Shown here: positions 26,631 to 31,897 of the stretch, one piece after another | Position numbering within the stretch: the stretch's first letter is position 1 | Layout of the letters: each line of letters begins with the position of its first letter | From: Chromobacterium piscinae | Lineage (GTDB): Bacteria > Pseudomonadota > Gammaproteobacteria > Burkholderiales > Chromobacteriaceae | Assembly: GCF_021129175.1 (NCBI RefSeq) | Contig: NZ_JAJOHV010000090.1 | Location: 1 to 37,618 of the forward strand | Reading direction: 5' to 3' | DNA: 37,618 bases | Program-made: the position numbers and the translations under genes | Notes under the pieces: generated by a model | The model's database searches: none | What the model was told of the DNA's origin: nothing | What the model saw: the letters and a program-made list of their open reading frames with translations, nothing else

Positions 26631-27439
26631 CATTTCTTGGCCGATTTGGCGATGAAGGCTTGCAGCGCCTTCTGGAACACCGGCGCGGACACGCTCATAT
26701 TGTCTTCCAGCTTGCGGCGGGCGGCGGGCGGCGCCGAGCTTTGCACGGCGACGATGGTGGCCTGGCCCTTGGCGTCGATGACGAAGATCGGCGAGCCGCT
26801 ATTGCCCTCCAGCGTGTCGCAGCGGTGGGTGAGGCGGCCGTCGCCGCGCAGCGCGGTGGCTTTGCAGCCATGGTGGGCGCGCAGATGGCGCTGATCGTCC
26901 ACCGGGTAGCCGCCCTGGGTGATGGTCCAGTTCTGTCTGGCCAGCAGTGTTTTCAATGCCTGGGCGTCGCCGGAGAATACCGGCACCGTGCCCTGGCTGT
27001 TGCCCAGCGGCGTGGCCAGCCGCACGAAGGCGAAGTCGCGCGGCGCGATGCGCGGCGGGATGTACAGGCCGTCGCGTTTGCGGATCAGGCCTTTGAGGAA
27101 GGCTTTGTCCACCTGTACTTCCTTGATGCGGCTCAGCGCCGTGTATTCGTCGCCCCACAGGCCGACGGTGAAGCTGGTGGCGGGGTCGAAACGGCCCTTC
27201 TCGTCGACGAAGCAGTGGCCGGCTGTCAACACCACGTCCGGGGCGACCAGGGTGCCGGTACAGATGGTGCGGGAGCGGGTTTCCAGCTGGCCCACGCTGC
27301 GCCAGGGCGCGCGTTCGGGCTTTTCCAGCACGCGGTCGTCCTTGCCGAAGAACAGGATCTTGTGTTCTTTGCTCAGCGGAGCGGATTGGACGAGGGCGGG
27401 GATCAGGGCGAGGCAGAGGGCAATGCGCGGCAGCTTCAT
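26630..27439 (-). CDS. exported trypsin-fold serine protease
   Basis: This 269-residue precursor has a signal peptide (about 1-20, ending QSA). The catalytic triad is visible: H75 in LTAGHC, D135 in RDFAFVRL and S214 in GNSGSP. Cysteine pairs C60/C76 and C192/C207 are placed for disulfides, so it acts in the periplasm or outside. D208, six residues before the serine, sits where trypsin has D189, which favours cleavage after Lys/Arg, although this Asp is common in V8-like relatives of other specificity. It follows a 300-residue lysine-rich repeat protein on the same strand, 89 bases downstream of it; the pair may be enzyme and substrate (inference). Confidence 0.9.
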   Translation of the reverse strand: MKLPRIALCLALIPALVQSAPLSKEHKILFFGKDDRVLEKPERAPWRSVGQLETRSRTICTGTLVAPDVVLTAGHCFVDEKGRFDPATSFTVGLWGDEYTALSRIKEVQVDKAFLKGLIRKRDGLYIPPRIAPRDFAFVRLATPLGNSQGTVPVFSGDAQALKTLLARQNWTITQGGYPVDDQRHLRAHHGCKATALRGDGRLTHRCDTLEGNSGSPIFVIDAKGQATIVAVQSSAPPAARRKLEDNMSVSAPVFQKALQAFIAKSAKK

Positions 27440-27462
27440 CGTGGTGGCACCTGGAAATGGAA

Positions 27463-27484
27463 ACGGGGCGCCGAAGCGCCCCGT
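27463..27484 (-). terminator. UUCG-loop hairpin between the repeat protein and protease genes
   Basis: On the minus strand a perfect 9-bp stem (ACGGGGCGC with GCGCCCCGT) closes a TTCG tetraloop and runs into TTTCC. It lies 45 bases after the repeat-protein stop and may terminate or only partly attenuate. Confidence 0.6.
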
Positions 27485-27528
27485 GCAATGCTATGCCGCT
27501 GAGTGATCAGACGGCGTCGGCACTGGAA

Positions 27529-28431
27529 TTACTTGGCAGCGGAAGCGGCCTTCTTCTTGCCGGCTTTCTTGGCCGGAGCGGAAGCTTCTTTCTTAGCAGC
27601 TTGAGCCTTTTGAGCGGCGGAAGCTTCTTTCTTGGCTACGTGCTTCTTGGCGTGCTTGTGGGCAGCCTTCTTAGCCGGAGCGGAAGCGTCGGCCTTAGCG
27701 GCTTGGGCTTTTTGAGCAGCGGAAGCTTCTTTCTTGGCAGCGTGCTTCTTAGCGTGGTGCTTGTGAGCCTTCTTGGCTTTCGGAGCGGAAGCGTCGGCCT
27801 TGGCGGCTTGGGCTTTCTGAGCGGAAGCTTCTTTCTTGGCTACGTGCTTCTTGGCCTTCTTGGCCTTCGGAGCGGAAGCGTCGGCCTTGGCGGCTTGGGC
27901 TTTTTGAGCAGCGGAAGCTTCTTTCTTGGCAGCGTGCTTCTTAGCGTGGTGCTTGTGAGCCTTCTTGGCCTTCGGAGCGGAAGCGTCGGCCTTAGCGGCT
28001 TGGGCTTTCTGAGCGGAGGCTTCTTTCTTGGCTACGTGCTTCTTGGCCTTCTTGGCCTTCGGAGCGGAAGCGTCGGCCTTGGCGGCTTGGGCTTTTTGAG
28101 CAGCGGAAGCTTCTTTCTTGGCAGCGTGCTTTTTAGCCGCGTGCTTGTGAGCCTTCTTGGCCTTCGGAGCGGAAGCGTCGGCCTTGGCGGCTTGAGCCTT
28201 CTGAGCGGAAGCGTCCTTCTTGGCTACGTGCTTCTTGGCCTTCTTGGCCTTCGGAGCGGAAGCGTCAGCCTTGGCGGCTTGAGCCTTTTGAGCGGAAGCT
28301 ACTTTTTTCTTTTCGGCCTTCTTGGCCTTGTGGATTGCCGGAGCGGAAGCGGCGGCCTTTTCAGCGGCGAAGCCGTTAGCGGACACCAGGCTGAAAGCAG
28401 CGGTCAGGGCGAGCAGAGCCAGCTTTTTCAT
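27529..28431 (-). CDS. Asr-like (acid-shock) Lys/Ala/His repeat protein, exported
   Basis: This 300-residue precursor has a signal peptide (about 1-22, ending GFA) and an otherwise disordered, very basic body of Lys, Ala, Ser and His. It is built from alternating units: A, KKAKKHVAKKEASAQKAQAA-type (29 residues), and B, with HKHHAKKHAAKKEAS (35 residues). Three A-B pairs of 64 residues are followed by a divergent end. QKAQAAK occurs eight times; the same heptad occurs in E. coli Asr, an acid-induced periplasmic chaperone of about 100 residues controlled by RstA. This gene lies directly downstream of rstB with an RstA-box match before it. Full strength AGGAG precedes the ATG at 28431. A histone-H1-like role is excluded by the signal peptide. 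The Asr relationship is by composition, motif and context, not proven homology. Confidence 0.8.
   Translation of the reverse strand: MKKLALLALTAAFSLVSANGFAAEKAAASAPAIHKAKKAEKKKVASAQKAQAAKADASAPKAKKAKKHVAKKDASAQKAQAAKADASAPKAKKAHKHAAKKHAAKKEASAAQKAQAAKADASAPKAKKAKKHVAKKEASAQKAQAAKADASAPKAKKAHKHHAKKHAAKKEASAAQKAQAAKADASAPKAKKAKKHVAKKEASAQKAQAAKADASAPKAKKAHKHHAKKHAAKKEASAAQKAQAAKADASAPAKKAAHKHAKKHVAKKEASAAQKAQAAKKEASAPAKKAGKKKAASAAK
27720..28298 (-). repeat. 192-bp higher-order tandem repeat within the Asr-like gene
   Basis: The sequence GGAAGCTTCTTTCTTGGCAG recurs at 27721, 27913 and 28105, exactly 192 bases (64 codons) apart, so the DNA repeat unit is the A-B protein pair. Boundaries are approximate. 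Confidence 0.85.
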
Positions 28432-28506
28432 TTACGAAACTCCTAAGTTTCTTTCGATTGGGTTGAAACGGACCCGAAGAAGTCCTAATTCAGGGCGAAT
28501 GCTATC

Positions 28507-28520
28507 GGTGGCAAGATGTA
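28507..28520 (-). promoter_or_regulatory. second, weaker RstA-box-like site
   Basis: Read on the minus strand, TACATCTTGCCACC matches 9 of the 12 defined positions of TACATNTNGTTACA. It lies exactly 40 bases from the stronger site, in the same orientation, about 80 bases before the Asr-like start codon. Confidence 0.35.
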
Positions 28521-28546
28521 GCGTCTAGGGTAGGCGTGTATCTCAA

Positions 28547-28560
28547 TGTTACAAAATGTA
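28547..28560 (-). promoter_or_regulatory. RstA-box match upstream of the Asr-like gene
   Basis: Read on the minus strand, TACATTTTGTAACA matches 11 of 12 defined positions of the E. coli RstA box as I recall it, TACATNTNGTTACA. It starts two bases beyond the rstB stop codon and about 115 bases before the Asr-like start, so RstA probably controls that gene. Confidence 0.65.
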
Positions 28561-28562
28561 CA

Positions 28563-29837
28563 TTAGGCTGTCGGCCAGCGAAGCAAAAAGCGCGCGCCGC
28601 CCATCGGCGAACTTTCCACCTTGATGCTGCCCCGGTGAGCGCGGGCGATGCCGGCGACGATGGCCAGCCCCAGGCCGTGGCCGCCGGTCTTGCGGCCGCG
28701 GCTTTCATCCAGGCGGATGAAGGGGTCGAACACCCGTTCGCGGTCTTCCTCCGGGATGCCGGGGCCGTCATCGTCGACGATGATGCAGCATTGCTGCTTG
28801 TCGACCAGGATGTGGGTGGCGACGACGGCGTTGGCGTGGCGGCGGGCGTTGGACAGCAGGTTGTCCAGCGCGCGGGTGATCAGGTGTTCGTCGGCGGTGA
28901 TGGTGAGCTCTTCACCGGCCGGTTCGATCCAGTGGATTTCCTGCGCCAGCGCCGCCTGGCCGGCGATGCGGTCGCGCGCCCAGGGCAGCGCGTTGAAGCT
29001 GCTCAGCGTCAGCGGCGCTTCGGGGCGGTCCAGCCGAGCGTGGAACAACAGCTCCTCCACCAGCTTGTCGATGGCGGTGAGGTCGCGCTCGATGGCTTGC
29101 CGCTCCGGCGCTTCTTCATCGCCCTCCAGCAGCGCCAGCCGGTAGCGCAGCCGCGCCAGCGGCGTGCGCAGCTCGTGGGCGACGGCGTTGGTCAGCGTCT
29201 TCTTGCTGTTGATCAGCGCGCCGATATTGTCGGCCATGTGGTTGAAGGCGACGCCGAGATGGTGGACGCCCGAATGCGGCGGCAGGTCGACGCGGGCGGA
29301 CAGGTCGCCGTTGGCCAGCAGGCCGGCGGTGCGCTCCAGCGCCACCAGGTCGCGCCAGTGGGGGCGCATCCAAAGGAACACCGGAATCGCCAGCGACAGG
29401 CCCAAGAGGCCCAGCAACGCGTAGTCGAACCACTTGAGCCGGTGCAGGAAGAACAGGTAGCGCAGCGGGCCGGCCACTAATAGATAGTTGCTGTCCTGCA
29501 GCTTCTGCAGGAACAGGTATTTGTCCTCCAGCATCACGATTTCGCCGCGGTCGAGCGCCTCTCTCGATTCTTCGTCGAGGATGTAGTTGCTCATCTTCTC
29601 CACCTTCACGCGGAAGGTGAAGCCGTAGTCGGCGTTGGCCAGGGTCTCGCTCCAGCGGTCTTCCGGCACGCCGCGCAGGTCGGCTTCGATCAGCGACAGC
29701 GTGGTGCGCAGCAGGTCGGCCAGATAGCGTTCGCCGACGTCGTCGACCGCCTGCTTGTACACCACGCCGACCATGACTACCGCGACCAGGAAGCAGGCCA
29801 TCAGCAGCAGGTAGAACTGGACGAAAAGGCGGCGCAT
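28563..29837 (-). CDS. rstB: sensor histidine kinase RstB
   Basis: This 424-residue inner-membrane kinase closely resembles E. coli RstB along its length: MRRLFVQFYLLLMACFLVAV, GEIVMLEDKYLF, and AIPVFLWMRPHW. It has TM1 (about 8-28), a periplasmic sensor, TM2 (about 138-156), HAMP, a dimerisation domain with phospho-acceptor H221 (AHELRTPLARL), and an ATPase domain with the N, G1 and G2 boxes (DNLLSNARRHA, DDDGPGI, GGHGLGLAIV). In enterics RstBA responds through PhoPQ and to acid. It begins six bases after rstA, so the two are co-transcribed. Confidence 0.95.
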   Translation of the reverse strand: MRRLFVQFYLLLMACFLVAVVMVGVVYKQAVDDVGERYLADLLRTTLSLIEADLRGVPEDRWSETLANADYGFTFRVKVEKMSNYILDEESREALDRGEIVMLEDKYLFLQKLQDSNYLLVAGPLRYLFFLHRLKWFDYALLGLLGLSLAIPVFLWMRPHWRDLVALERTAGLLANGDLSARVDLPPHSGVHHLGVAFNHMADNIGALINSKKTLTNAVAHELRTPLARLRYRLALLEGDEEAPERQAIERDLTAIDKLVEELLFHARLDRPEAPLTLSSFNALPWARDRIAGQAALAQEIHWIEPAGEELTITADEHLITRALDNLLSNARRHANAVVATHILVDKQQCCIIVDDDGPGIPEEDRERVFDPFIRLDESRGRKTGGHGLGLAIVAGIARAHRGSIKVESSPMGGARFLLRWPTA

Positions 29838-29843
29838 CCGCGC

Positions 29844-30557
29844 TTACTCCCAGCCGGACAGCGAGAACAGGTAACCGCGGTTGCGCACGGTCTTGATGCG
29901 GAACGGCTCGCTGGGGTTGTCGCCTAGTTTCTTGCGCAGCCGCGAGATCGCCACGTCTATGCTGCGGTCCAGGCCGTCGTAATCGACGCCGCGCATTTCC
30001 TTCAGCAGCAAGTCGCGGTTCAGGGTTTCGCCGGCGTGGCTGGCCAAGAGCCACAGCAGGTCGAAGTCGGAGGTGGACAGCGGGATCTTCTCGCCGGCCA
30101 GCACCACGTCGCGGCTGACCGGGTCGATCGACAGCTGGCCGAACACCGCCTTGCGCGAACCCTTGGCCGGCTGCGCCTCGACGGGTTGGGCCGGGCGCAG
30201 ATTGCGCAGCTGCGCGCGCAGCCGGGCCACCAGCACCGACGGCGGCGTGGTTTTCAGGATGTAGTCGTTGGCGCCCAGCTCCAGGCCCAGGATCTGGTTC
30301 ATGTCGCTGTCCAGCGAGGTCAGCATGATGATGGGGCCGTCGAACTTGGGCCGCAGCTCGCGGCAGATCGACAGGCCGTCCTTGCCCGGCAGCATGATGT
30401 CCAGCAGCACCATGTCCGGCGCTTCGCGGGCGATGGTGTCCAGCGCGGCGTCGCCGCGCGGTTCGATCACCACTTCCATTTCGTGGCGGGACAGGAAATC
30501 GCTGATCAGTTCGGCGAGGTCGGCGTCGTCTTCGACGAATACGATGCGATGGGTCAT
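29844..30557 (-). CDS. rstA: response regulator RstA
   Basis: This OmpR/PhoB-type regulator of 237 residues has a receiver domain with phospho-acceptor D53 (VLLDIMLPGKDG), the RstA-specific TSLDSDMNQILGLELGANDY block, and a C-terminal winged helix containing YDGLDRSIDVAISRLRKKLG and IKTVRNRGYLFS. Similarity to E. coli RstA is high throughout. The start at 30557 (MTHRIVFVEDD) aligns with the E. coli N-terminus; an in-frame ATG at 30569 adds four residues. Likely targets include the Asr-like gene, preceded by a matching box 2 kb downstream. Confidence 0.95.
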   Translation of the reverse strand: MTHRIVFVEDDADLAELISDFLSRHEMEVVIEPRGDAALDTIAREAPDMVLLDIMLPGKDGLSICRELRPKFDGPIIMLTSLDSDMNQILGLELGANDYILKTTPPSVLVARLRAQLRNLRPAQPVEAQPAKGSRKAVFGQLSIDPVSRDVVLAGEKIPLSTSDFDLLWLLASHAGETLNRDLLLKEMRGVDYDGLDRSIDVAISRLRKKLGDNPSEPFRIKTVRNRGYLFSLSGWE

Positions 30558-30637
30558 GCGGGTATCCATGCAGTTGATTGGCGGTTTGCCGGCAAGTATC
30601 TCGCGCCGGGAGCCGCGGCTCAAGTGCGGACAGCCGC

Positions 30638-31528
30638 TCAGGCGGGCTCCCGGCCGGGCAGGAACAGCGGATTGAAGCCGATGCGCGCGAAACCGGCCTC
30701 GCCGGCCAGCAGGTCCAGCGCCAGGCTGGCCAGATCGTCGGCGCCGGCCTCCGCATCGGCATCGAGCAGCAAGGAAATCTGCTTCAGCGCGCCATGGCAT
30801 TCGCCGCAGGCTTCCACTTCGCGCGCGCCGCGTTCCTGATGAGGTTGCCGATGGTTGGGGTCGGCGGGGACATGGTCCTGCGCCGCCAGCGAGTAGTAAT
30901 GCAGATCCCGGCTGTTGCCGCAGGATAGGCAGCGCACCCGGCCTACCGGCCAGGCGTGGCTGCACATCGAGCACACCACGTAGCGCTGGGCGTGGCCGCT
31001 GTCGCCGCGCAGCAGCAGCGAGGCCAGCGGCAGGCCGCCGCAGCATGGGCAACGCGCTTCCTGGCTCTGCGGCTCGGGCAGCGGCCGCTGGCGGATGCTG
31101 CGGGTGGCCTGAGCCTGCAAGGCTGCGCCCAGCAGCGGCAGCGCAGCGAACAAGGGACCGTCGGACGGATAGTCGCCGTTGATCAGATGCTCGGCCAGCC
31201 GGCTGAGTGCGGCGGCGTCCAACGCCAGCAGGGAATCAAGACTGGCCTGGACGGGGGCGGGCAGCTGCGGCGCCAGCGCCTGGGCCAGTTTTTCCAGCGC
31301 GGCGCGCGGATCGAGCCGGGAGGCGTCGTGCAAGGCTTGCTGCTGCTGGCAGATGGCGGCGCACAGCCGCAGAAAATCGGCCATCGAGTGGCCGTCGGCC
31401 AATTGCAGCAGCCGCGCGGCGCGGCGGGCGAAGATGCCGGTCGGCGGCCGCAGCACGGGCAGGCTCATCAGGGGGGCGTCGCCGGCGAGTATCTGTTCGG
31501 CCGGCAGGATGGGTTGGGTGGGGGTCAT
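30638..31528 (-). CDS. fdhE: formate dehydrogenase accessory protein FdhE
   Basis: This 296-residue cytoplasmic protein carries the four FdhE CxxC pairs (CPCC, CSMC, CLSC, CGEC) that bind iron, with an HAWPVGRVRCLSCGN segment typical of the family. FdhE is needed for maturation of respiratory formate dehydrogenases, acting on the catalytic subunit before Tat export. It lies downstream of fdnGHI after a 369-base gap, so it may have its own promoter. The N-terminal half is Ala/Leu-rich and helical. Confidence 0.93.
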   Translation of the reverse strand: MTPTQPILPAEQILAGDAPLMSLPVLRPPTGIFARRAARLLQLADGHSMADFLRLCAAICQQQQALHDASRLDPRAALEKLAQALAPQLPAPVQASLDSLLALDAAALSRLAEHLINGDYPSDGPLFAALPLLGAALQAQATRSIRQRPLPEPQSQEARCPCCGGLPLASLLLRGDSGHAQRYVVCSMCSHAWPVGRVRCLSCGNSRDLHYYSLAAQDHVPADPNHRQPHQERGAREVEACGECHGALKQISLLLDADAEAGADDLASLALDLLAGEAGFARIGFNPLFLPGREPA

Positions 31529-31897
31529 GGTTAGTCGCGGCGATTTATTTTGAGAGTAGCCTAGCGTATTGAGACAGTATCTGGGTTGTGTCCGCTGCGC
31601 GGACGATATTTAGGTGGCGGTTCCGCCCGCCGGACGGGCCAGGGGCTGTGCGGCCAGCCCCTTAGCGATCCCCGGCCGCCCCTGCAGCCCGCGAAACCGC
31701 GCTCAAAAAGCGGTTGGCAAGGCGCCGCCGAAACTCGCCGCGCGCTAGCGTCGCGCGGCGTCGAACAAATCGGCGGCTTAAAACCTTGCCAGCCGCTTTC
31801 TGGGCGGCGCGTGCAGAAGGGGATGATTGTCGCTCCGTTGTCCAGGTGCTCATAAGGCCAAGCTCTAAGGCCCGCCTGCAGCTGCAGGATCATGATC
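31529..31897. other. GC-rich non-coding stretch, possible dispersed repeat
   Basis: No gene is supported in these 369 bases between fdnI and fdhE. Frames exist on both strands but are Arg/Pro/Gly-rich without motifs. A perfect 9-bp hairpin with a 7-base loop (31736-31760) is surrounded by several CGCCGC-rich segments, the look of a dispersed intergenic repeat. Confidence 0.4.
31736..31760. repeat. GC-rich inverted repeat in the fdhE-fdnI gap
   Basis: The arms CGCCGCGCG and CGCGCGGCG (9 bp, perfect) flank CTAGCGT. No T-run is present, so it resembles a REP-type palindrome more than a terminator. Confidence 0.4.

Follow-up and report, generated by a model that had tools for sequence, protein, structure and literature searches.

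Does the gene that follows rstA-rstB in Chromobacterium piscinae encode an acid-shock effector of that regulator, and do regulator and effector form a single locus? In the window, that is, the whole stretch of 37,618 nucleotides (contig NZ_JAJOHV010000090.1) analyzed here, a first-pass annotation had described an rstA-rstB pair followed on the same strand by an exported 300-residue Lys/Ala/His repeat protein with eight QKAQAAK motifs, and the open reading frames (ORFs), curated models, and motif count agree with that description. The ORF list and profile searches give the order rstA, rstB, repeat gene, and a gene for a trypsin-family protease, all on the minus strand (table 1). The YdgD-type protease gene, a predicted RstA box, and two further QKAQ proteins in the genome go beyond the earlier description. 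We consider it highly probable that these genes constitute an RstA-controlled acid-shock-type locus, rstA-rstB-asr-ydgD.

Table 1. Features of the rstA-rstB-asr-ydgD region, in window coordinates
Feature	Position	Strand	Basis or remark
rstA, response regulator, 237 aa	29844..30557	-	NF007977 match; inside longer mechanical ORF
rstB, sensor kinase, 424 aa	28563..29837	-	NF007898 match
Predicted RstA box TACATTTTGTAACA	28547..28560	-	2 nt past rstB stop; one mismatch to TACATNTNGTTACA
Third TACA half-site TTGAGATACA, 10 nt on from RstA box	28537..28546	-	Motif reading
-10 hexamer TAGCAT, 56 nt from box start	28499..28504	-	TAnnnT offset conserved in family
asr-like gene, 300-aa Lys/Ala/His repeat protein, eight QKAQAAK	27529..28431	-	ORF, motif count
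Probable signal peptide, first 23 residues of repeat protein	28363..28431	-	By eye
Tandem repeat, 192-bp unit, within asr-like gene	27676..28293	-	Repeat search
Terminator-like hairpin, weak T tail, between asr-like gene and ydgD	27463..27484	-	Consensus scan (10 such sites found, 5.7 expected)
ydgD-type exported trypsin-family serine protease, 269 aa	26630..27439	-	Homology to E. coli YdgD

The regulator pair and the repeat protein

RstA scores 392 bits with the NCBIfam equivalog model NF007977 (cut-off 330), and RstB scores 608 bits with NF007898 (cut-off 478). The former shares 61% identity with E. coli RstA over nearly its full length, and the latter 46% with its E. coli counterpart over 423 residues. 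The two RstA proteins are one residue apart in the segment GLDRS[VI]DVAISRLRKKL, which by our own mapping would contain the DNA-contacting residues named in an earlier study (PMC4117788). RstB is present in 56 of the 61 genomes of the family to which the window belongs (Chromobacteriaceae, Neisseriales); in a class draw of 369 genomes, whose Enterobacterales share was not established, only the window's own genome exceeded the cut-off.

The repeat protein has the traits of Asr in that it is apparently exported, basic, and repetitive and carries QKAQAAK. Its N-terminus, MKKLALLALTAAFSLVSANGFAA, resembles a signal peptide by eye, and residues 24–300 consist of 30% Lys, 40% Ala, and 6% His, with a net charge of +65 when His is left out of the count. 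Exact QKAQAAK sites number 8 in the window and 14 in the whole genome, with none for the reversed pattern that served as control. The protein scores 22.9 bits with the Pfam Asr model PF06392, under the gathering score of 24.9; it does not match the NCBIfam Asr model NF033636 (cut-off 50 bits), and BLASTP against E. coli Asr returned nothing. Because the curated models and BLASTP fail, kinship with Asr rests on place, promoter, and motif. Across 200 genomes of the order, PF06392 matched in a single genome, which was not the window's own; its strictness or its composition bias makes this model unsuitable for a survey, and loci were therefore anchored on RstB and YdgD.

It had also been proposed that the effector has grown threefold by repeat expansion. 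That proposal has partial support. The gene does contain 3.2 copies of its repeat unit with 96% matches, and complete products in the asr place of the family loci range from 57 to 382 residues (the 64-residue product of L068 being a possible frameshift), but the direction of growth is not polarised, and within this range the size of the window protein is not special. In one relative, L078, the asr place holds a 308-residue protein with different repeats and no KAQA motif. Contigs of draft genomes end inside the repeat gene at L047, L050, L052, L055, L071, L077, and L081, and the gene is therefore under-represented in short-read genomes. Antisense to the repeat gene of the window there is a 329-residue ORF (27457–28446, plus strand) that looks like a by-product of repeat composition and no gene, and Rfam gave no match at gathering scores between 26500 and 31500.

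Promoter layout and gene order among relatives

The published RstA consensus is TACATNTNGTTACA (PMC4117788). Around and after the rstB stop, the best match to this consensus has at most two mismatches in 47 of the 56 family loci, a level reached by dinucleotide shuffles in 6/2800 cases, with at most one mismatch in 0/2800. All 47 of these loci have TAnnnT at one of two offsets from the box start, 56 in 35 loci and 57 in 12; for the other offsets between 24 and 94 the mean is 0.19. Outside the family, a -10-like hexamer lies at exactly 56 in all 47 QKAQ genes recovered from 45 of 54 loci (E. coli, loci mostly titled Enterobacterales, and four of Chitinibacteraceae type); the other 9 gave no QKAQ gene. 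The window gene shows the same RstA-box promoter in the E. coli layout, its box-to--10 distance being that of E. coli asr. At the position of the third half-site, many relatives have ACA or ACC by eye. The layout is not uniform throughout the family, as the nine g10 loci include five in which the best box match has 4 mismatches and one in which it has 3. Nor is the box alone enriched genome-wide (12 matches with at most one mismatch vs 12 in the control). A consensus scan of 27300–31600 for sigma-70 promoters found none, an outcome that an activator-dependent promoter would lead one to expect but that gives such a promoter no support either. The 56-nt layout can serve to find further members.

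The promoter layout is common to the window gene and to the genes for two more QKAQ proteins of the genome, C8 (230 aa) and C52 (82 aa). Both proteins fall under the curated cut-offs, C8 with 20.0 bits for PF06392 and 32.5 for NF033636, and C52 with 14.6 and 35.5, respectively. Among 20 stretches with paralogues, a box with at most three mismatches precedes the QKAQ ORF in 16 at first pass, a count that includes L198 and L202, where the best match lies one half-site off, and L203, where the start is doubtful. With corrected starts, L195–L197 also have 3-mismatch boxes (shifted by one half-site in L195 and L196), and L204 yielded no ORF. Perfect matches to the RstA box occur three times in the genome. 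The one at L002 falls within a coding ORF and was discounted as a chance match. Another, at L001 on contig C21, is followed after 83 nt by a gene for an OmpA-like barrel (L001:807–1418, minus strand); since this box has no -10 at 56 nt, the barrel gene is only a possible target.

A survey of rstBA neighbours in 56 family loci (the window and 55 relatives) establishes that the pairing is not confined to the window's strain. Of these loci, 53 have an exported basic ORF behind rstB, 51 found by script and two (L056 and L088) by hand; the initial ORF filter had passed over 11 loci, and these were read by hand. In L095 and L096 no asr-like ORF follows rstB, and ydgD lies upstream on the other strand; L090 is ambiguous. 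The signal-peptide-like N-terminus of the asr-like protein is, by eye, retained in relatives. Other genera have the pairing as well. Among the best 80 of at least 251 YdgD relatives, from which all YdgD loci named here are drawn, the complete order rstA-rstB-asr-ydgD occurs in Chitinibacter L127, Deefgea L135, and Iodobacter L126, all Chitinibacteraceae, and in the MAG L125, and rstAB lies 1.7–3.8 kb before asr-ydgD in Erwinia L131 and L164 and in Yersinia ruckeri L170. In 36 of 47 YdgD loci of Enterobacterales type (one titled Chryseobacterium), no more than 500 nt separate the end of a QKAQ gene from ydgD; the distance is 1.2–2.8 kb in 4, and no QKAQ gene was found in 7, one of which is cut by a contig end. 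We infer that the ancestral order was linked and was later loosened in Enterobacterales. Two Mangrovibacter loci, L158 and L159, have two tandem asr copies before ydgD, with a box and a -10 on each.

The protease and the function of the locus

The window protease shares 38% identity with E. coli YdgD across 265 residues (E 4e-48) and is the only YdgD match in its genome at E 0.001. The catalytic triad is in place: H75, D135, and S214, together with D208, are invariant in 8/8 aligned sequences. D208 is the Asp six residues before the catalytic Ser, and in trypsin an Asp at this position means cutting after Lys or Arg. The YdgD profile is matched by a solved chain, 7uxg (E 4.4e-109), and the YdgD of Chromobacterium vaccinii (L104) is 99% identical to the window protein. 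YdgD is present in 44 of the 61 family genomes; at E 1e-20 the class draw of 369 genomes, of which the Enterobacterales share was not established, contained it in the window's own genome only. Deletion of ydgD has been reported to lower acid resistance, with a larger effect at pH 8 than at pH 5.5 (PMC13339887).

The repeats and the protease tend to occur together. KAQA was counted across all frames in the 1300 nt downstream of rstB, for every family locus except L090, L095, and L096 (53 of 56). Of the 41 loci with YdgD, 37 have the motif, and none of the 12 that lack YdgD does (Fisher p 7e-9, with no correction for relatedness); the YdgD-less genomes were listed by hand, 9 of the 12 come from one genus, and the genome G046 is 84% complete. 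The four exceptions, L063–L065 and L078, have YdgD and lack the motif. This co-occurrence suggests that the QKAQ repeats may be a substrate of YdgD, a protein of solved structure that is seldom mentioned in the literature searched and now becomes a possible partner of Asr.

More distant RstB proteins, under the family cut-off, occur in nine other genomes of the class. A composition filter found no Lys/Ala-rich exported ORF in these nine stretches. In three of them a box with 0–1 mismatch after rstB is followed by a gene for an outer-membrane protein, which is MipA in L210 and L212 and a TonB receptor in L208. MipA also follows a weak 3-mismatch box in L207; in L206 a 3-mismatch match stands before no outer-membrane gene, and L205, L209, L211, and L213 have 4–5 mismatches. 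These arrangements hint at a general slot behind rstB, open to different RstA-driven envelope effectors. As a tentative extension, which we regard as possible rather than probable, YdgD would be a dedicated Asr-processing protease that cuts the Lys-rich QKAQ repeats; regulator, substrate, and protease would then make up one module, the number of repeats would set the dose of released peptide, and the slot would be occupied by Asr in Neisseriales and, in some other lineages, by MipA or a TonB receptor.

If the E. coli system is a guide, the signal that RstB responds to is most likely periplasmic, probably acid, and RstB would in turn phosphorylate RstA. RstA would bind the TACA half-sites at 28537–28560, a site whose sequence and spacing are evident, and fire a separate promoter from the -10 at 28499–28504. 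A secreted Lys/Ala/His protein, probably without fixed structure, would then be made in large amounts and may, like E. coli Asr, protect envelope proteins and the outer membrane. YdgD, with its trypsin-type pocket, probably cuts the Lys-rich protein to mature or clear it. C8 and C52, with the promoter layout described above, probably answer to the same regulator.

The signal is the part of this scheme for which an alternative deserves most weight. Regulator and promoter could be the same and yet respond to another envelope stress, such as cationic peptides or low phosphate or magnesium, the polycation acting on the outer membrane and not as an acid chaperone. In E. coli, asr answers to PhoB as well, and rstA to PhoP (PMC9026648; PMC4117788), and the outer-membrane genes behind the boxes of the three distant RstAB systems, the MipA gene behind the weak box of L207, and the perfect box before the OmpA-like barrel in this genome all fit such a role. 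Acid is, however, the signal shown for RstAB acting on asr in E. coli LF82, where at acid pH RstA binds asr and switches it on and deletions lower acid tolerance (PMC11135836). We regard another stress as possible but less probable than acid.

The remaining alternatives concern the repeat protein itself. It is unlikely that the protein has no common descent with E. coli asr and is a low-complexity protein of other origin, placed under RstA control by chance or convergence. The lack of a significant BLASTP match and the scores under both curated Asr cut-offs would be accounted for in this way, but the ydgD neighbour, the promoter spacing, and QKAQAAK are all common to E. coli asr, and NF033636 picks up the paralogue C52 at E 1.4e-8, a match that stays below the cut-off. 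Far less probable still is a cytoplasmic DNA-binding protein of the histone H1-like or AlgP-like kind: the Lys/Ala-rich composition would suit such a protein, whereas the retained signal-peptide-like N-terminus and the RstA-type promoter would not, and profile searches gave no histone-like match. An acid-shock-type protein under RstA control remains our preferred reading. The proposal that regulator and effector form one locus is likewise supported, by the conservation of the pairing across genera and by the RstA box with E. coli asr spacing before the gene.

Comparison with known systems

In the titles and abstract openings among the matches listed, we found no earlier description of the gene order rstA-rstB-asr-ydgD, the subscription literature being mostly outside the search. 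The presence of asr in Chromobacterium violaceum and Laribacter has already been listed (PMC3135505, Table 8), in a text that mentions neither rstA nor rstB. The nearest arrangements in Enterobacterales are those of Erwinia L131 and L164 and Yersinia ruckeri L170, which have rstA-rstB and asr-ydgD on one strand as in the window. They differ from it in what lies between rstB and asr: one M32 peptidase gene in L131, a similar ORF in L164, and approximately 3.7 kb of other genes in Y. ruckeri.

E. coli asr-ydgU-ydgD resembles the window in RstA, RstB, YdgD homology, QKAQAAK, and a box with a -10 at 56 nt. The E. coli Asr is a disordered chaperone, and ydgU is part of the asr transcript (PMC10746267). 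The E. coli locus differs in that ydgU stands between asr and ydgD and that Asr has 102 residues with two QKAQAAK motifs, compared with 300 residues and eight in the window protein. The first-pass annotation had placed asr elsewhere in the E. coli genome. It is indeed not beside rstAB, but in MG1655 asr-ydgU-ydgD lies only 10.5 kb before rstAB, and ydgD is its near neighbour. The locus described here is a well-supported new variant of the RstA-Asr system and provides evidence, independent of E. coli genetics, that RstA and Asr are an old regulator-effector pair. A pathway known mainly from gut bacteria thus appears to form a compact unit in Chromobacterium and its relatives.
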